Origin: an uncultured Planctomycetaceae bacterium
Lineage (GTDB): Bacteria; Planctomycetota; Planctomycetia; Planctomycetales; Planctomycetaceae
NCBI GenBank assembly: GCA_913031625.1
Contig: CAJWGB010000028.1
Coordinates: 1 to 35,865, forward strand
Direction of reading: 5' to 3'
Length of the DNA stretch: 35,865 nt
The position numbers and the translations under genes were made by a program. The notes below the pieces were generated by a model. It ran no database searches, was not told where the DNA came from, and saw nothing but the letters and a program-made list of their open reading frames with translations. Below, one piece after another: positions 1 through 29,513 of this stretch (positions are counted from its first letter, which is position 1; each line of letters starts with the position of its first letter).

Positions 1-290
1 TGACCCTGGCGGTTCGAGTTGAGAACGGTTTCGTCTTTTGAGACCTGGACACCTGCGGCCTCTTTCCCTGAATTGCAGGTTCAGCCGAGCTTTTTTCCTG
101 CAATTGAGCCCTGCCGGGCTGCTCTGCGGCCGATACAGGAACGATCCAGAGCAATTTTGGGATACTTTCATTCCGCCAGGGCGAAAGTTTGCCCGATTGG
201 CACCGGACTGGTATCCTCCGCGGTTCGCTGAGAGGGCATCCGTCCTCACTTATGAATCACAGTTCATCCAAAATTGGAGTTCGCGCCGGA
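1..290. other. Structured intergenic leader, no gene supported
   Basis: No convincing gene is visible here; the short open frames lack a ribosome site or recognisable protein. Two inverted repeats are seen directly. The first pairs AATTGCAGG (71-79) with CCTGCAATT (97-105) around a 17-base loop containing a run of six T. The second pairs AGCCC (107-111) with GGGCT (116-120) over a 4-base loop. They could be the terminator region of a gene left of the window or leader structure for the small basic protein that follows. I cannot decide between these. Confidence 0.3.
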
Positions 291-377
291 ATGGGAACTA
301 AGAAGACAGGTAAAGGACGTCGAAAAATTGGCCGCAAGAAGCGACGTATGCGAGCCAAAATTCGACATCGAAAGTAG
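291..377 (+). CDS. 28-residue extremely basic protein, possibly ribosome-associated (COX24/mS38-like)
   Basis: The frame starting at ATG 291 encodes 28 residues, of which 16 are Lys or Arg and none is acidic, with a core of GRRKIGRKKRRMRAKIRHRK type. A GGAG lies about 11 bases upstream, and a strong hairpin follows the stop by about 45 bases, so it looks like a self-contained transcription unit. Earlier in-frame ATGs (189, 252) would add sequence of no recognisable character, so the short form is preferred. Tiny RRK-rich proteins of this kind in bacteria are often assigned to the AURKAIP1/COX24 domain (related to mitoribosomal mS38) or resemble bTHX; the family assignment is from memory of composition and motif, not an alignment. 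A role binding rRNA is inference. Composition alone cannot exclude a nucleoid-binding peptide. Confidence 0.6.
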   Translation: MGTKKTGKGRRKIGRKKRRMRAKIRHRK

Positions 378-421: not shown

Positions 422-458
422 AAAGCCCGGTGCGTGTTGCGCTGCATCGGGCTTTCTG
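422..458 (+). terminator. Rho-independent terminator candidate after the small basic gene
   Basis: AAAGCCCG (422-429) pairs exactly with CGGGCTTT (448-455), and the stem extends inward through a G-T pair and further pairs towards a small loop. The T run at the 3' side is only three bases. It sits 45 bases after the stop of the small basic gene. Confidence 0.6.
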
Positions 459-724: not shown

Positions 725-3178
725 ATGTCGTCAAGAACTCTTCGACTCGCCCTCCTCTTCTTCGTCTGCGCCGGGCTGGTTGTCCGCGCTGATGACCCCA
801 GGACAAAGGCTGTTCAGCAGCAGCTGGATGCGGCAAAGAAGTCCCAGGTCGCCGCACAGAAGCAGATTGCTCTCAAGCAGGCTGAAATCGATGTCGCTAA
901 GAAGCGCATCGCTGAACTTCAGAAACAGATTGAACAGAGTCAGAAAAGTATCGCCGCTGACGCTGCGGCGCTCAAGAAGGCCCAGCAGACAGAAGTTGCC
1001 TCCGGAGAATCGGTCGTCGTATTGCAGAAGCAGCTGGCGGCGCACAATCATGCCAATGGATTGATCGCCGCAGCGGATGCGGTTCGGGCTCAGGCTGACG
1101 CAGCACAAAAGAAGCACGACACACTCGTCAACCAGCTGGCGGACACGAAACGATCTCTGTTCGAAGCAAAGCAGAAACAGGCCAAAGCAGAAGCTGAGTT
1201 GAAGAAAGCTCAGGAACAGCTGCCGAAGAGTCAGGAAGCGTTGACCAAAGCTCGAACGACTCTCGATGCGGCTGCGAAGGAACTGGATGTCGCTCGAGTT
1301 GCCGTCAGCACGGCTCGCTCGAGTGCACGAGCAGACCGAGATGCGATCGCTCCTGCAGCGGCCCGAGTCGCGCGTGCAAAGTTGGCCCACGACAAAGTGC
1401 TGGCCAGCACTAAGTCACTGGAAGAAGCGCTGGCAGCAGTGCGAGCGGCGGCAGTTGCGGGAGGCACAGATCCAAATGCGGCTGGTGCAGAGATCGCTCA
1501 GTCACTGGCGTCTTTGAAGCCGCTTGAAGCTAACGCCGCTGCCATCATGGCAACGGCATCCCAACAGCAGAATGCGGCAACGGCGAAAGCGACGGCTTCG
1601 GCCAAAGGTCTTGCAGATAAACAGTCAAAAATCCGCGAGCTGCAGACCAAATACTCAGATCAGAGCAAAGCGCACTTCAAACTGCAGTTGCAGGTTGCTG
1701 ATCTGCAGGGAGCAGACAAACTCAATCAGACAATTATTGCTGAGGCAAAGAAATCTCAGGAGACACTGGCAGCCGCTCAGACACAGGTGGAAACCCAGAT
1801 TGCTGCTGCGGCCAGTGAAGTGGAAGCACACAATTCTGAGTATGTTGCAAAAATGAAACTGGCGGAAGCAGCACTTGAACCGCTCGGTCGGTTTGTGTCC
1901 TTCAGTAACCACATTGCTCCGATTTTCGCAAAGCGATGTGTGGCGTGTCACAACACCCGAACGGCCAGTGGGCGACTGAATATGGACTCCTTTGCGGCGA
2001 TCCTGAAGGGCGGTGAGTCTGGTGCGAGTCTGGAAGCTCACAATGCAGAAGACAGCCTGCTCGTCCTGATGATTGAAGACGGATCCATGCCTCAGAAGGC
2101 AGACCCCTTGTCTAAAGACGAGATCTCCGTCATTCGGAAGTGGATTGACGCGGGTGCTCCACTTGATGCGGGGCTTGTTGCCAGTGCGGAATTGTTCCAG
2201 GTAATTCCGGAAGTTCCGCAGCCGCTGCCTCCTAAGTCGTATCGCGTTCCAATTCCCGTGACAGCGACCGCGTTTAACCCGGAAGGCAATATCCTTGCTA
2301 CCTCCGGATACCATGAAATCCTGTTGTGGAGCACGGATGACAACAAACTCATTCGGCGAATTACAAACGTGGCTGAACGAGTCTATGACCTTGAATTCAG
2401 TGCGGATGGATCTCAACTGGCGGTTGCAGCTGGCACGCCCGGACAACTCGGGGAAGTCAAACTGTTTTCTGTCGCGGATGGCAGGCACATGAAAACACTT
2501 GTTCGTACGAAGGATGCAGTGTTTGCCGTGACATGGAGCCCGGACGGGAAATCCATCGCCTCAGGGGGTGCTGACCGAGTCGTCTCAACTGTTGAGGTTG
2601 CAACCGGAAAAACTCAGCTGACAATCGAAGATCACGCGGACTGGGTCATGGATGTGAACTGGTCGCCGGACGGCAGTCAGCTGGTCACGGCCAGTCGGGA
2701 CAAGACTGCCAAGGTATTCAATGTTGCTGATGGACGGTCACTGATTACCTTCAATGGGCACGGTAACTCTGTTTACACGGCTGCATTTCTGAAGGACGGA
2801 AAGCAGATCGTGAGTGGGGGCAGTGACAAGCAGCTCCGAGTCTGGAATGTTGCCGATGGGAAGGAAGCTCGAAAGATCGGCGGATTCGGCAGTGACATTT
2901 TCCGCATTGCCGTGACGGCAGAGAATCACGTTCTGTCTGCATGTGCTGATACAAAGGCATATCACCACAATGCAGCGGATGGCAAGGCTGTTCGTTCTTT
3001 TGCTGGCCACAAGGACTGGGTGTACACGCTGGCTTATAGTGCGAAACGTAAACTGCTGGCGTCCGGCAGCTACGACGGAGAGATTCGGCTGTGGAACTCA
3101 GAGGATGGCAGCGTGGCTGGCAGCTTTATCGCGGTTCCTCAGGCAGATACGAAAGCTGTTGCAGCAGCAGAAGAGTAA
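725..3178 (+). CDS. Secreted coiled-coil, PSCyt1 cytochrome c-like, seven-blade WD40 protein
   Basis: The 817-residue product has a signal peptide (about 1-22, ending VVRA). Residues 25-385 are Ala/Lys/Gln-rich and almost entirely helical heptad sequence, that is, a long coiled coil. A PSCyt1 (planctomycete cytochrome C) domain follows at about 393-480, with one haem motif CVACH (Cys405, Cys408, His409) and a likely distal Met in GSMPQ. Residues about 500-805 hold seven WD40 repeats, recognisable by SPDG/SADG turns and ending in LW/VW-type strands, enough for a closed propeller. The arrangement implies an exported, haem-carrying scaffold protein held away from its anchor by the coiled coil; its partner is unknown. 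Such PSCyt1-WD40 proteins are common in planctomycetes and their function is not established. The start fits a GGAG about 10 bases upstream. Confidence 0.9.
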   Translation: MSSRTLRLALLFFVCAGLVVRADDPRTKAVQQQLDAAKKSQVAAQKQIALKQAEIDVAKKRIAELQKQIEQSQKSIAADAAALKKAQQTEVASGESVVVLQKQLAAHNHANGLIAAADAVRAQADAAQKKHDTLVNQLADTKRSLFEAKQKQAKAEAELKKAQEQLPKSQEALTKARTTLDAAAKELDVARVAVSTARSSARADRDAIAPAAARVARAKLAHDKVLASTKSLEEALAAVRAAAVAGGTDPNAAGAEIAQSLASLKPLEANAAAIMATASQQQNAATAKATASAKGLADKQSKIRELQTKYSDQSKAHFKLQLQVADLQGADKLNQTIIAEAKKSQETLAAAQTQVETQIAAAASEVEAHNSEYVAKMKLAEAALEPLGRFVSFSNHIAPIFAKRCVACHNTRTASGRLNMDSFAAILKGGESGASLEAHNAEDSLLVLMIEDGSMPQKADPLSKDEISVIRKWIDAGAPLDAGLVASAELFQVIPEVPQPLPPKSYRVPIPVTATAFNPEGNILATSGYHEILLWSTDDNKLIRRITNVAERVYDLEFSADGSQLAVAAGTPGQLGEVKLFSVADGRHMKTLVRTKDAVFAVTWSPDGKSIASGGADRVVSTVEVATGKTQLTIEDHADWVMDVNWSPDGSQLVTASRDKTAKVFNVADGRSLITFNGHGNSVYTAAFLKDGKQIVSGGSDKQLRVWNVADGKEARKIGGFGSDIFRIAVTAENHVLSACADTKAYHHNAADGKAVRSFAGHKDWVYTLAYSAKRKLLASGSYDGEIRLWNSEDGSVAGSFIAVPQADTKAVAAAEE

Positions 3179-23215: not shown

Positions 23216-25945
23216 ATGGCAGATAAGTACGTTTACACGTTCGGAGATGGAAAAGCTGACGGCGAAGCTTCTCAGAAGGAGCTTCTGGGCGGAAAAGGGG
23301 CCAACCTGGCAGAAATGAGCCGTATTGGCCTGCCGGTTCCAGCTGGATTTACGATCACAACAGAGGTCTGCACCTACTTTTACGACAACGACCGATCTTA
23401 CCCGCCCGAACTCGAAGCTCAGGTCAATGAAGCCATTGCTAACGCCGAAGCCGCGATGGGCAAGAAGTTCGGCGATGCTGAGAACCCGCTGCTGCTGAGT
23501 TGCCGCTCCGGAGCACGTGAATCCATGCCCGGAATGATGGACACTGTTCTCAACATCGGAATCAATGAGCAGGTCGTTCAGGCCCTCATCAAGCAGTCTG
23601 GCAATGAGCACTTTGCATGGGACAGTTACCGACGCCTGATTCAGATGTACGGTGACGTTGTTCTCGGTCTGAAGCCGGAATCCAAGAACGATCCGGACCA
23701 TTTCGAAGACATTCTGGAGAAAGCTCGCGAAGAAGTCGGAGCAGAGCACGAGAAAGATCTCAGTGTTGATGCTCTGAAAGACATCGTCAGTCAGTTCAAA
23801 GATGTCATCAAGACTCACGCTGGCATTGACTTTCCTGAGGATCCGATGGAGCAGCTCTGGGGCTGCATCGGCGCCGTCTTCGGCAGCTGGATGAACGACC
23901 GAGCGATGGTTTACCGTCGTCAGTACGGCATCCCTCACGAATGGGGCACAGCAACCAACGTTCAGGCGATGGTCTTCGGCAACCTGGGTGATGATTGTGC
24001 CACAGGTGTTGGGCTGACTCGTAACTGCTCTGACGGTACTCCCGGTTTCTGCGGCGACTATCTGATCAATGCTCAGGGAGAAGACGTCGTTGCCGGTACT
24101 CGTACTCCGAAGCGTGTTGAAGAAACACTGAGCGAAGACAAGCCGGACGCATTCGAGCAGTTGACGAACATCGGCAAGACTCTTGAGCAGCACTACAAAG
24201 ACGTCCAGGACATCGAATTCACGGTTGAGCGTGGAAACGTCTGGATGCTGCAGACTCGTAACGCCAAGCGAACCGGATTCGCTGCCGTGCGTATCGCCGT
24301 TGATCTGGTCAACGAAGGCCTGATCGACGCGAAGACTGCCCTCGAGAAACGACGTATCCCAGCGGACGACCTGAACCAACTGCTGCAGCCGATTTTCAAT
24401 CCGGCTGACAAGCAGAAGGCGGAAGGCGAAAATCGTCTGCTGGCCAAGGGCATCAACGCCGGCCCAGGTGCTGCCACTGGTCAGATCGTCTTCCATGCTT
24501 CAGATGCTGAAGCACAGTGGAATGCTGACAACGACCTGCAGCTCGTACTGGTTCGAAAAGAAACCAGCCCGGAAGACCTCCGGGGAATGAAGGTTGCCAA
24601 GGGCATCCTGACAGCCTTTGGTGGGGCGTCTTCTCACGCTGCTCTGGTTTCACGCCAGATGGGTAAGACTTGTGTCTGCGGTTGCGATGCTCTCAATATC
24701 GACTACGAAGCAGGGACTGTCACCGTTGGCGATACAGTGCTGCGTGAAGGGGACTGGATTTCCATCGATGGATTCAGTGGTGAAGTCTTCAATGGCAAGA
24801 TTGAAACCAGCCCGTCTGAGGTAATGGAAGTACTGACTGGTAACAAAGCTCCTGAAGAGAGCGAAGTTTACCAGCGATATGCTCAGCTGATGGCATGGGC
24901 GGACGAGCATCGAACTCTGAATGTTCGAGCGAACACCGAGTCTCACGATGCTGAAGTCAGTGTTCAGCTGGGTGCCGAAGGTGTTGGCCTCTGCCGAACC
25001 GAGCATATGTTCTTCGATCATCTCGATGAAATGCGTGAAATGATCTTCTCTTCCACAAAGGAAGATCGCGAAAAAGCACTCGCCAAACTGATCAACTTCC
25101 AGCGTGATGACTTCACTCACCTGTTCCGCACCATGGGCGGTAAGGCAGTTACGATTCGACTGCTGGACCCACCTCTGCATGAGTTCCTGTCTGAGCACCA
25201 CATGCACGACGACCCGACTCTGGCTGGCAAGCTGGCGTCAACATTCGGTGTGACCGAAGACGATGTGAAGCGACGTGTGGCTGAACTGGTTGAGAGCAAC
25301 CCGATGCTTGGTCATCGTGGGTGCCGACTTGGAATCGTTTACCCGGAAATCACAGCTATGCAGGCTCGAGCGATCCTCGAAGCAGCATGTGCTCTGAAGA
25401 AGGAAGGCGTTGAAGTTCATCCTGAAATTATGATTCCTCTGGCTGGTTACAAGACGGAAGTCGACAACCAGACAGCCGTGATCAAAGAGACTGCTGCAAA
25501 GGTCTTTGAAGAGCAGGGCGTTGAGGTTGACTTCATGACAGGTACGATGATCGAGATCCCACGTGCGGCTTTGACTGCGGGAGAGATTGCCGAGACTGCT
25601 GAGTTCTTCAGCTTCGGTACAAACGACCTGACTCAGACCGGATTGGGAATCAGCCGAGACGACTACAAGGGCTTTATCGGCTACTACACCGAGAACGACA
25701 TTGTCCCGGCTGACCCGTTCCAGACGATTGACCAGGTTGGAATCGGTCGCCTGATGAAGATTGGTGTCGGCGATGGTCGAGAAACCCGACCGGACCTCAA
25801 GATCGGCATCTGCGGTGAGCATGGTGGTGATCCGAAGTCAGTTTACTTCTGCCACGAGATTGGCCTGAACTACGTGAGCTGTTCTCCTCGCCGAATTCCG
25901 ATTGCTCGTCTGGCTGCCGCACAGGCTGCTGTCGAAGCAGGATAA
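23216..25945 (+). CDS. ppdK: Pyruvate phosphate dikinase
   Basis: The 909-residue protein interconverts ATP, phosphate and pyruvate with AMP, pyrophosphate and PEP. It has the N-terminal nucleotide-binding half (GGKGANLAEM, SGARESMPGMMDT, GTPGFCGDYLIN), the swivelling phosphohistidine domain (GGASSHAALV, His474), and the C-terminal PEP/pyruvate TIM barrel (CRTEHMFF, LGHRGCRLGI, FSFGTNDLTQT, GICGEHGGDP with catalytic Cys866). The length is near the bacterial norm, with a few extra residues. Ser472 stands where PPDK usually has Thr, two before the catalytic His. It is probably the pyruvate-PEP enzyme of this organism. Codon choice looks more restricted (many GCT, CGT, CTG) than in its neighbours, consistent with high expression. 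GAGG lies about 11 bases before the start. Confidence 0.97.
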   Translation: MADKYVYTFGDGKADGEASQKELLGGKGANLAEMSRIGLPVPAGFTITTEVCTYFYDNDRSYPPELEAQVNEAIANAEAAMGKKFGDAENPLLLSCRSGARESMPGMMDTVLNIGINEQVVQALIKQSGNEHFAWDSYRRLIQMYGDVVLGLKPESKNDPDHFEDILEKAREEVGAEHEKDLSVDALKDIVSQFKDVIKTHAGIDFPEDPMEQLWGCIGAVFGSWMNDRAMVYRRQYGIPHEWGTATNVQAMVFGNLGDDCATGVGLTRNCSDGTPGFCGDYLINAQGEDVVAGTRTPKRVEETLSEDKPDAFEQLTNIGKTLEQHYKDVQDIEFTVERGNVWMLQTRNAKRTGFAAVRIAVDLVNEGLIDAKTALEKRRIPADDLNQLLQPIFNPADKQKAEGENRLLAKGINAGPGAATGQIVFHASDAEAQWNADNDLQLVLVRKETSPEDLRGMKVAKGILTAFGGASSHAALVSRQMGKTCVCGCDALNIDYEAGTVTVGDTVLREGDWISIDGFSGEVFNGKIETSPSEVMEVLTGNKAPEESEVYQRYAQLMAWADEHRTLNVRANTESHDAEVSVQLGAEGVGLCRTEHMFFDHLDEMREMIFSSTKEDREKALAKLINFQRDDFTHLFRTMGGKAVTIRLLDPPLHEFLSEHHMHDDPTLAGKLASTFGVTEDDVKRRVAELVESNPMLGHRGCRLGIVYPEITAMQARAILEAACALKKEGVEVHPEIMIPLAGYKTEVDNQTAVIKETAAKVFEEQGVEVDFMTGTMIEIPRAALTAGEIAETAEFFSFGTNDLTQTGLGISRDDYKGFIGYYTENDIVPADPFQTIDQVGIGRLMKIGVGDGRETRPDLKIGICGEHGGDPKSVYFCHEIGLNYVSCSPRRIPIARLAAAQAAVEAG

Positions 25946-26019: not shown

Positions 26020-26213
26020 CGTGCGCACAGCCATGTGATTCTGGTCGCACCTTAAGGGAAGGCGTCTGATGAGGTGAAGATTCCTGCACGTCAAGCATTC
26101 ATTGCCGGAACTGTCGAGCGAGGTGTCGCTGCCTGCGGAGTCGAGTGGAGGTGTGCTGACACGGCAGCAATGGCAGAAGTATGCTGTTAGAATCTCTCTC
26201 TGAGGAATATCCC

Positions 26214-29200
26214 ATGCGTGACTGCCGAGTTGCTGTTGTTGCTCTCATCTTTCTGAGCAGCCTGTGTGTGGCACAGGACGACTCTCCGGAAGCAATTCGC
26301 TTCTTTGAGTCGAAGGTCCGCCCATTGCTCGCGAAGCACTGTCTGAAATGTCATGGTGCAAAGCGTCAGGAGGCGGGACTCCGGCTGGATACAGCTGAGG
26401 GGCTGAAGGCCGGCGGAGATTCCGGAGCAGTCGTGGACACTGCAAAGGGAACCCGACAGAACAGCCTGCTGCTGAGAGCCGTCCACCGCAAAGACGGGCT
26501 CGAGATGCCTCCTGAGAAGCCTCTTGATAGGTCAGAGATCAGAACGCTGGAAGAGTGGGTTGCGTTTGGTGCGCCATTTCCAGCAGCCGCGACCCGGGCA
26601 TCCGGGGACGGTTCCGGCCATTGGGCATTTCAACCAGTGAAGAATGTCAGAGTTCCAGGAAACACTGCGGACGATTGGAGTCGAACTGAGATCGATCGCT
26701 TTATAAAAGGCCGACTCACAGCAGCGGACGCGCGTCTCCGTCCATCCAAAGAGGCTGCTCCTGCAACCCTTGTTCGGCGTGCGTCGCTTCTCCTTCGGGG
26801 CTTGCCGCCGTCTGTCGAAGAGGTGAGCGCCTTTCTGAATCAGTGGCAGCAGGATTCTGAGCAGGCATGGTTGCAGCTAATCGATCAGATGCTGGCGTCT
26901 CCTGAGTATGGTGAGCATCAGGCACGGCAGTGGCTCGACGTCGCGCGGTACGCGGACAACAAGGGCTATGTTTTCTTTGAGGAGAAGAACTTTCCCTGGT
27001 CATGGACGTATCGCGACTGGGTTATTCGTGCATTCAACGAGGACATGCCGTTTGATCGCTTTGTGCGACTCCAGTTGGCCGCAGACCAGATTGAACCGCA
27101 GCACTCGCCTCATTTGGCGGCGATGGGTTTCCTGACACTGGGGCCACGATTCGTCAACAACACCCACGACATCATGGATGACCGCATTGATGTGGTGACT
27201 CGCGGGCTCATGGGGCTGACGGTGACATGTGCTCGGTGTCATGACCACAAGTTCGATCCGATTCCGACAGCCGACTATTACTCACTCTATGGAATCTTTC
27301 GAAGTTCCCGTGAGCCGTCTGTTGGCCCGCTGATCGCACCGCCACCAGATACTGACGAGTACAGGGCATTTGCAGCGGAGCTCAGGAAACGCACCGATGC
27401 GCTGGGGGCGTTCGTGAATAGCCAGCGGCAACTGATGATGTCCGGGGCCCGGGAACGGGCTGCCGAGTATCTCCTTGCTGCATGGCAGCGCCGGAATCAT
27501 CCGGACACCGAGAACTTCATGTTGCTGACGGACAAGGGCAGCATCAACCCGGCAATGCTGAAACGCTGGGAGGTGTACCTCAAGACCGCACGTCGGCAGC
27601 AGGATTCGTTCTGGCGACCGTGGTTCATGGTGGCTGACCTTGAAGATAAGGAGCTTGCGACAGGTCTGCCAAAGATTGGTGGCTGGCTGGAAACTGGTGA
27701 GGCAGTCCAGTCCGTTAATCCACTGCTGCGGTCGGCATGGCTGAATAAGGCGCCTCGGCAGATTGATGATGTGGTCGCGATCTACGGGGATCTTCTCAAA
27801 CGAATCCATCAAAAATGGCAGCAACAGATCAAGAGTGATTCCACGCTCGAAAGAATGAAGCAGCCGGCAGAGGAAACCATCCGACTGGTGCTGTATGGGA
27901 AAGGGGCTCCGGCAATGGTCCCTCAGGATCTTGGGTGGGGGTTTCTGGATCTGCTCCCGGATCGTCCGACACAGAACGAATACAAGAAACTGCTCGGTGC
28001 CGTCGAGACACAGGCACGCTCCGGAAAAGGGGCACCACCGCGCGCGATGGCGCTGGAAGACGCATCCGTCATGTACGACCCGGTAATCTTTCGCCGAGGG
28101 AACCCGAATCGGGAAGGGCCGGCAGTTCCGCGACGGTTTCTGAAAGTCCTCTCACCAGAGGCTCGTGCGCCTTATGGCGAACAGAGCGGCCGACTGCAAC
28201 TGGCCGAGGCGATCGTTGATCCTCGGAATCCGCTGACTGCACGAGTGTTTGTAAACCGCATCTGGCAGCAGCATTTCGGCGCGGGGCTGGTCAGTACTCC
28301 GAGTGACTTTGGCCTGCAGGGCAAGCGTCCGTCACATCCGGAACTGCTGGACTGGCTGGCAAAGACGTTTCTGGCGGACGGTGGTTCACTCAAGAAGCTT
28401 CATCGGCGGATTCTGATGTCGTCCGTTTTCAGGCAGGCAGCAACTGCGACTGCTGAGGTAACGACGGTGGCTCAGATTATTGACCCTGCGAATCGCCTTC
28501 TGTGGCGTTTCCCGCGCCGACGCCAGTCGCTGGAAGTCATGCGGGACGCTCATCTCTCGGTTTCCGGATCGTTGCAGAACCTACAGGGAGGGCCACCGGC
28601 TGAGATTTATGCTGGGTATCAGCCGCGCAGAACAATTTATGGTTTCGTTAATCGGATGGATCTTCCAACGCTGATGAGGACGTTCGATTTTCCCGAACCA
28701 GCTGCGACCAGCGGTCAACGCGAAGCCACGACCGTTCCTCAACAGGCGCTCTTCTTTCTGAATCACTCATTTGTGCGCGAATCAGCAATTCGGCTCTTGA
28801 AGCGTCCTGACGTAGGGGCGTCACTGGACACTGCTGAGCGAATCACACGGATTTATCGTCTCCTGTTTTCACGTGAGCCGTCGTCCGAAGAACTTGAACT
28901 TGCCCAGACCTTCGTAAATGCAGACAAACCTGCCGCGCCGCCGACACCGTGGCGTTATGGGTATGGGGGTGTTGATGAGAAGACTCAGCGAACCAGCAGC
29001 TTTCACGAACTGACTCACTCAACGGGAACCCGAATTCAGGCAGGCCCGGTGTTGCCGGACCCGAAACTTGGTTGGGTGTTTCATGACCGTACCGGAGGCC
29101 ATCCGGCGTCTTCATCGGATCATTGTTTCGTACTGAGGTGGATTTCACCCATTGATGGCAAAGTGCGGATCAGCGGCACTCTTACGCACCGCCCGGAACC

Positions 29201-29513
29201 CGGCAACGGAGTCCGCGCAAGAATCGTCTGCAGTGATCAGGGGATTGCCGGAACATGGCGAGTGGATCAGTCGTCGGAGGAAACAATTTCGGAGGCGATA
29301 AGTGTCTTCCGAGGGAGTACGATTGATTTTGTGGTGGACTGGCAGGGGCATATCACGCACGACGAGTTTGAATGGCCGGTTACAATTACGAACATTGACG
29401 GGGACCGAAGGAGCTGGAATTCAAAAGAGGACTTTCGCCAGCCTGTTTCTGACCCGTGGACCGATTATGTCCATGCCTTGCTGATGACGAACGAGTTTGT
29501 GTTTGTGGAGTAA
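26214..29513 (+). CDS. PSD1-type protein: PSCyt1, DUF1549 and DUF1553 domains
   Basis: ATG 26214 with GAGGA 8 bases upstream gives 1099 residues with a signal peptide (about 1-20). Domain order: PSCyt1 cytochrome-like (Cys43, Cys46, His47 in CLKCH; about 27-120), DUF1549/PSCyt2 (about 165-380, with a second CxxCH at Cys339-His343, CARCHDHKFDP), and DUF1553/PSD1 (about 650-900, LAEAIVDPRNPLTARVFVNRIWQ and PQQALFFLNHSFV). The last 200 residues are beta-rich, perhaps a jelly-roll. These proteins are abundant in planctomycetes, are exported and presumably haem-binding, and are of unproven role, with polysaccharide or sulfated polymer breakdown often proposed. The usual partner DUF1501 gene is absent here. 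Confidence 0.93.
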   Translation: MRDCRVAVVALIFLSSLCVAQDDSPEAIRFFESKVRPLLAKHCLKCHGAKRQEAGLRLDTAEGLKAGGDSGAVVDTAKGTRQNSLLLRAVHRKDGLEMPPEKPLDRSEIRTLEEWVAFGAPFPAAATRASGDGSGHWAFQPVKNVRVPGNTADDWSRTEIDRFIKGRLTAADARLRPSKEAAPATLVRRASLLLRGLPPSVEEVSAFLNQWQQDSEQAWLQLIDQMLASPEYGEHQARQWLDVARYADNKGYVFFEEKNFPWSWTYRDWVIRAFNEDMPFDRFVRLQLAADQIEPQHSPHLAAMGFLTLGPRFVNNTHDIMDDRIDVVTRGLMGLTVTCARCHDHKFDPIPTADYYSLYGIFRSSREPSVGPLIAPPPDTDEYRAFAAELRKRTDALGAFVNSQRQLMMSGARERAAEYLLAAWQRRNHPDTENFMLLTDKGSINPAMLKRWEVYLKTARRQQDSFWRPWFMVADLEDKELATGLPKIGGWLETGEAVQSVNPLLRSAWLNKAPRQIDDVVAIYGDLLKRIHQKWQQQIKSDSTLERMKQPAEETIRLVLYGKGAPAMVPQDLGWGFLDLLPDRPTQNEYKKLLGAVETQARSGKGAPPRAMALEDASVMYDPVIFRRGNPNREGPAVPRRFLKVLSPEARAPYGEQSGRLQLAEAIVDPRNPLTARVFVNRIWQQHFGAGLVSTPSDFGLQGKRPSHPELLDWLAKTFLADGGSLKKLHRRILMSSVFRQAATATAEVTTVAQIIDPANRLLWRFPRRRQSLEVMRDAHLSVSGSLQNLQGGPPAEIYAGYQPRRTIYGFVNRMDLPTLMRTFDFPEPAATSGQREATTVPQQALFFLNHSFVRESAIRLLKRPDVGASLDTAERITRIYRLLFSREPSSEELELAQTFVNADKPAAPPTPWRYGYGGVDEKTQRTSSFHELTHSTGTRIQAGPVLPDPKLGWVFHDRTGGHPASSSDHCFVLRWISPIDGKVRISGTLTHRPEPGNGVRARIVCSDQGIAGTWRVDQSSEETISEAISVFRGSTIDFVVDWQGHITHDEFEWPVTITNIDGDRRSWNSKEDFRQPVSDPWTDYVHALLMTNEFVFVE

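Follow-up and report, generated by a model that had tools for sequence, protein, structure and literature searches.

The window, a stretch of 35,865 nucleotides from an uncultured Planctomycetaceae bacterium, carries near its start a very short open reading frame with a ribosome-binding motif in front of it and a hairpin behind it (Table 1). Translation of positions 291-377 on the forward strand gives MGTKKTGKGRRKIGRKKRRMRAKIRHRK and then a stop. With eight lysines and eight arginines, 16 of the 28 residues (57%) are basic, one further residue is a histidine, and aspartate and glutamate are absent. This agrees with the original prediction, made from the DNA letters, of a 28-residue protein with 16 basic residues and no acidic one.

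Table 1. Features at the 28-codon locus, in window coordinates
Feature	Position	Strand	Basis
Highly basic, bS22-like 28-codon gene plus stop	291..377	+	translation, relatives' conservation, codon constraint
GGAG Shine-Dalgarno core, 11 nt 5′ of the ATG	276..279	+	sequence reading
Strong hairpin 3′ of the gene with a short T-run, possibly a transcription terminator	about 422..455	+	RNA folding

The prediction had also described a plausible ribosome site, a strong hairpin after the gene, and a locus that looks like its own transcription unit. The ribosome site recurs in relatives: a Shine-Dalgarno core is present at 107 of 121 loci of the own-class type, compared with 349 of 3307 background positions. 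This set of 121 is what remains of 131 loci (L001-L133 without L031 and L032) once identical neighbourhoods are removed. The hairpin is likewise strong, with the RNA of positions 378-470 folding at -41.4 kcal/mol (z -4.2) and none of 200 shuffles doing as well. We also compared 143 family loci, picked by a narrow motif and for having 800 nt of DNA downstream; at 106 of them, the strongest 45-nt hairpin in the 100 nt that follow the stop beats control positions. That the gene is its own transcription unit is plausible. A consensus scan of positions 1-760 gave no sigma-70 promoter and did not list the hairpin as a terminator. The T-run is short, and the two terminator-like sites in that scan, where 1.0 was expected, both lie away from the hairpin.

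Conservation and coding constraint

Of 57 further genomes from the same genus, family and class, 54 match the 28-residue frame (55 of 58 with its own genome included), at 71-100% identity over 25-28 residues and E values of 3e-10 to 3e-4. Each matching genome holds one match at E < 0.001, with a second, chance-level match (E 0.3-0.87) in five genomes, and in the source genome the gene of the window is the sole match. The three genomes without a match were searched again with profile A2, which found nothing at E ≤10 in G001 (90% complete) or G034 (99% complete) and, in G019, a best match at E 2.0. G034 is a member of the same family, and its lack of a match would reflect loss or strong divergence. 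A wider scan of contigs kept at least 80 loci, whose record labels are planctomycetes or just “bacterium”. Among the carriers is a cultured planctomycete, Blastopirellula marina (locus L082). As sampled, the gene is near-universal in its own class.

The codon pattern across the 121 own-class-type loci is that of a protein under constraint, with pS at 0.756 (saturated), pN at 0.118 and pN/pS at 0.156. Identity at codon positions 1, 2 and 3 is 0.87, 0.89 and 0.41, and falls near chance in the flanks (0.25-0.29 upstream, 0.26-0.36 downstream). All 121 frames run to a stop 28-30 residues from the aligned start position; that position holds ATG, GTG or TTG in 118, and the remaining three have an ATG one codon later. 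The 119 distinct DNA sequences yield 54 distinct 28-residue translations. In 25 diverse own-class rows, G7, G9, G14 and H26 are invariant and M20 and I24 are kept in at least 90%, while some own-class loci carry Gln15 and six carry Thr16. The basic 28-residue frame is thus a real, strongly constrained gene, usually present once per genome. The two checks proposed with the original prediction, conservation of the frame in related genomes and a synonymous/nonsynonymous signature of coding, both came out in its favor.

The same data bear on whether the locus is a protein gene at all. From the shortness of the frame and the hairpin that follows, one might suspect an open frame arisen by chance or an RNA element under conservation, but this reading is refuted by the codon pattern and retains practically no probability: third codon positions vary freely as the amino acids hold, and frame and stop persist at every one of the 121 loci. 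Nor does Rfam offer a family, the single match (E 0.85, positions 601-650, opposite strand) being taken as chance.

Relatives elsewhere in the phylum

Profile A2 matched 39 of 392 genomes of the phylum at E 1e-10 or better, all of them labelled as the gene's own genus, family or class; among the misses listed in this search, G034 is the only genome from these groups. Inspection of 15 weak A2 matches brought out five true short frames, for example MGKPRRRRKIGSKKRHMRWKIRHKIS with GGAG upstream, and the other ten were dropped. Profile A3, which adds the divergent forms to A2, matched 45 of 150 genomes of another class at E 1.5e-4 or better and 18 more at E 0.01-0.09, leaving 87 without a match. 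Two of the 45 (G457 and G526) have two good matches each, pointing to gene duplication or redundant assembly contigs. We inspected 35 of the better other-class loci, along with 15 of the 18 weakly matching genomes. Of these 15, 14 carry a 24-residue form, MAKPRRRRKIGSKKRKARRDRRKR being an example, and the remaining match (L193), where there is no 24-residue member, was rejected. In family f108, 13 inspected homologues (L179-L191) are cut to 24 residues and have an added acidic residue (..KARRDRRKR/K); upstream of each stands GAAAGGAG, exactly or nearly so. Seven inspected genomes of family f53 have forms like MAFKPRRRRKIGSKKRRMRKLRSKKK, and the f19 form is MASGKKTGRGRRKIGSKKRRARRRRRKKRGK. Of 14 matches inspected from another search, eight are convincing and six were dropped.

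A joint profile (A5) was then run on the 392 genomes of the phylum, from which some of its own rows derive. It matched 55 at E 2e-5 or better, 39 belonging to the own class and 16 lying outside it, and four more at E 0.004-0.007; 333 gave no match at E 0.01. Across the 17 rows of A5, M1, R10, R11, K12, G14, K16, K17 and R18 are invariant. The relatives elsewhere in the phylum share the core RRK[IV]GSKKR, and most have a Shine-Dalgarno-like site. Their length is 24-31 aa, compared with 28-30 codons at loci of the own-class type. Outside the own class, the gene is patchy or too diverged for detection.

Family libraries and predicted structure

Searches of Pfam, NCBIfam and the PDB returned nothing useful, either for the single 28-residue protein or for the family sets; two hits, one family member to Apelin (E 1.4) and one to LapA_dom (E 2.3), were taken as chance. 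The original prediction had likened the C-terminus to COX24/AURKAIP1-type proteins and proposed a comparison with the COX24 domain profile, which gave no match. COX24_C (PF08213) was over its cut-off in none of 20 genomes and had no match at the 28-residue locus, and it matched 0 of 30 and 0 of 17 family members. Four weak PF08213 matches (E 0.125-4.1), in three of the 20 relatives and all away from the locus of this gene, were rejected. Given this failed profile test, the planctomycete 28-residue family is not to be filed under PF08213. The failure is weak evidence against a bS22 identity, because PF08213 itself matches just three of five bS22 sequences from solved ribosomes. In the open-access library searched, we found no paper joining Planctomycetes with bS22, AURKAIP1, or unannotated small ribosomal proteins.

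For a natural 30-residue close homologue, AlphaFold2 predicts one helix from residue 4 to 28 (mean pLDDT 78, pTM 0.37). A predicted single helix would fit bS22, a helical peptide of the helix-bend-helix kind, but also many other basic peptides.

Comparison with bS22 and other small basic ribosomal proteins

Two reports describe bS22 as a short basic helix, 55-65% basic, in the h2/h27/h44/h45 pocket of 16S rRNA, analogous to mS38 and to eL41, whose basic helix of 24 aa occupies that pocket too (PMC10618245, PMC10085706). The Borrelia protein, 61% Lys/Arg, occupies this pocket and had no annotation until its density was seen (PMC10618245). A third report states that bS22 resembles mS38 in fold and position, and that mS38 restrains the upper part of h44, close to the decoding centre (PMC6582356).

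Among the closest known counterparts of the planctomycete protein are the bS22 proteins from Bacteroidota and from Borrelia (PDB 7jil, 9i5v, 8fmw), which are 28-30 aa long and very rich in lysine and arginine. Both sides have, in a similar order, a basic N-terminal run, then K-[IVM]-small-small, HKR/KKR, an R, and a basic end, but the planctomycete core is RRK[IVL]G[SRQ]KKR and its middle is shorter. In size, the family (24-31 aa) overlaps the bS22 chains (28-33 aa), and the Lys/Arg content of the window protein falls inside the bS22 range. The actinobacterial bS22 of M. smegmatis and C. acnes (PF08213, COX24_C), a basic protein of 33 aa, is alike in length and composition, but its alignment is no better than shuffles. 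The C-terminal domain of mS38/AURKAIP1/COX24 is a Lys/Arg-rich helix along h44; these proteins, however, are longer and mitochondrial, with transit and N-terminal parts, and their profile PF08213 is not matched by the planctomycete family.

We scored profiles against their own column-shuffled versions, which preserves composition. The rows were hand-chosen representatives (12 of the own class, eight of subfamily B, three of C, four of D and one of E), and the decoys were eL41, bL37, bTHX, bL34 and bL36. Against Bacteroidota/Borrelia bS22, D reached z 4.2 (P 0.0007) and B z 3.1 (P 0.0055), with P 0.013 for both C and E, while the own class (P 0.13) and the window protein alone (P 0.20) did no better than shuffles; the 42 comparisons, from six queries, are non-independent and the best P values modest. 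Subfamilies B, C, D and E gave P > 0.12 with all five decoys. For D and B, it is chiefly the Flavobacterium sequence that carries the signal (P 0.001 and 0.004, respectively), and Borrelia bS22 alone gives P 0.09 for D and 0.07 for B. No likeness beyond shuffles was found for any of the six queries with actinobacterial bS22 (P 0.10-0.46), with eL41 (P 0.21-0.85) or with the bTHX of Thermus (P 0.19-0.95).

As a positive control, Borrelia and Flavobacterium bS22 found each other at once (z 10.7). Actinobacterial and Bacteroidota/Borrelia bS22 gave only P 0.21 jointly (range 0.2-0.6), so the shuffle test misses an accepted pair, and by the same measure the divergent planctomycete forms lie closer to Flavobacterium bS22 than actinobacterial bS22 does. 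The window protein is in turn tied to these divergent forms, with P 0.0001 for B and 0.0015 for D, and also by the profile E-values of A5. When hhalign compared A5 with A6, the bS22 set, 19 columns running from Met1 to Met1 aligned at P 0.003, although the probability was only 10%; A6 with A2 aligned in one column. These sequence comparisons support, without proving, a relationship to bS22 that runs through the more divergent planctomycete members. The original suggestion of a ribosomal subunit component akin to the mS38 type holds in its direction, by way of the bS22 likeness of the intermediates, and not for the window protein taken by itself.

Possible functions of the 28-residue protein

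On balance, the product of the gene is probably a bS22-like protein of the small ribosomal subunit, an analogue of mitochondrial mS38 and of cytosolic eL41. The peptide, mostly alpha-helical and rich in lysine and arginine, would sit in the 16S rRNA pocket of h2/h27/h44/h45. It may also touch 23S rRNA across the interface, adding an intersubunit contact, and could stiffen upper h44 near the decoding centre; this binding site and mechanical role in the ribosome are what we infer for it. If so, Pfam and NCBIfam are missing a planctomycete ribosome component near the decoding centre, and the pocket theme of bS22, mS38 and eL41 would reach another bacterial phylum. The family would then provide the sequence with which density in maps of planctomycete ribosomes can be interpreted, and iterated six-frame profile searches with codon tests could reveal more ribosomal proteins of under 30 residues.

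Lysine- and arginine-rich sequences align easily, and convergence may lie behind the likeness to bS22. A planctomycete interface peptide could have evolved independently to fill the h44 pocket, a new convergent ribosomal protein family that would escape the family libraries because its members are only 24-31 residues long; we consider this a minority possibility. It is also rather unlikely that the protein belongs to another site of the ribosome, as a bL37-like filler of the large subunit or as an rRNA-binding peptide that is peculiar to planctomycetes and has no relation to bS22. Strong conservation and basicity would suit any rRNA-binding filler, and the own-class profile scored P 0.04 against the bL37 of M. 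smegmatis, the lowest of the 30 decoy comparisons and better than its score against bS22, with P 0.08 for the window protein. Subfamilies B-E, in contrast, have no likeness to bL37 (P 0.60-0.94) and yet align with bS22.

Functions away from the ribosome fare less well than the bS22-like reading. With 57% Lys/Arg and no acid, the protein could be a nucleic-acid binder that compacts the nucleoid, in the manner of protamines or histone tails, or an RNA chaperone. Tails of that kind, which depend on composition only, are generally not kept residue by residue. Here the sequence is, the non-basic G7, G9, G14, M20, H26 and I24 included, and a helix is predicted in the homologue, which makes such a role improbable. 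We give a very small chance to a secreted or antimicrobial peptide, or to a leader peptide regulating the downstream gene. The basic helix would suit an antimicrobial, and bS22 from C. acnes is itself reported to inhibit the growth of bacteria when added (PMC10085706). Visual inspection shows no signal peptide, however, and near-universal presence with constraint as deep as the class is unlike bacteriocins. For a leader peptide, a relative of the next gene downstream is found at 30 of 122 loci of the own-class type, a count that takes in the locus of the window and, in some cases, a short stretch only, but this neighbour is not seen at the other 92, where flanks are short.

Gene neighbourhood

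Comparison of neighbours, made without 29 own-class-type loci (Gln15 or Thr16 forms) and with one dropped locus (L213) counted in, found no cluster widely common to the subfamilies and recognised no ribosomal gene among the representative neighbours. In the window, the next gene downstream (725-3178, +) encodes an 817-aa protein with PSCyt1 (planctomycete cytochrome C domain) and WD40 repeats. Farther along the forward strand lie genes for a Sulfatase (PF00884; 12348-13979), a Pyruvate phosphate dikinase-like protein (23216-25945) and an 1110-aa protein with PSCyt1, PSCyt2 and PSD1 domains (26181-29513).
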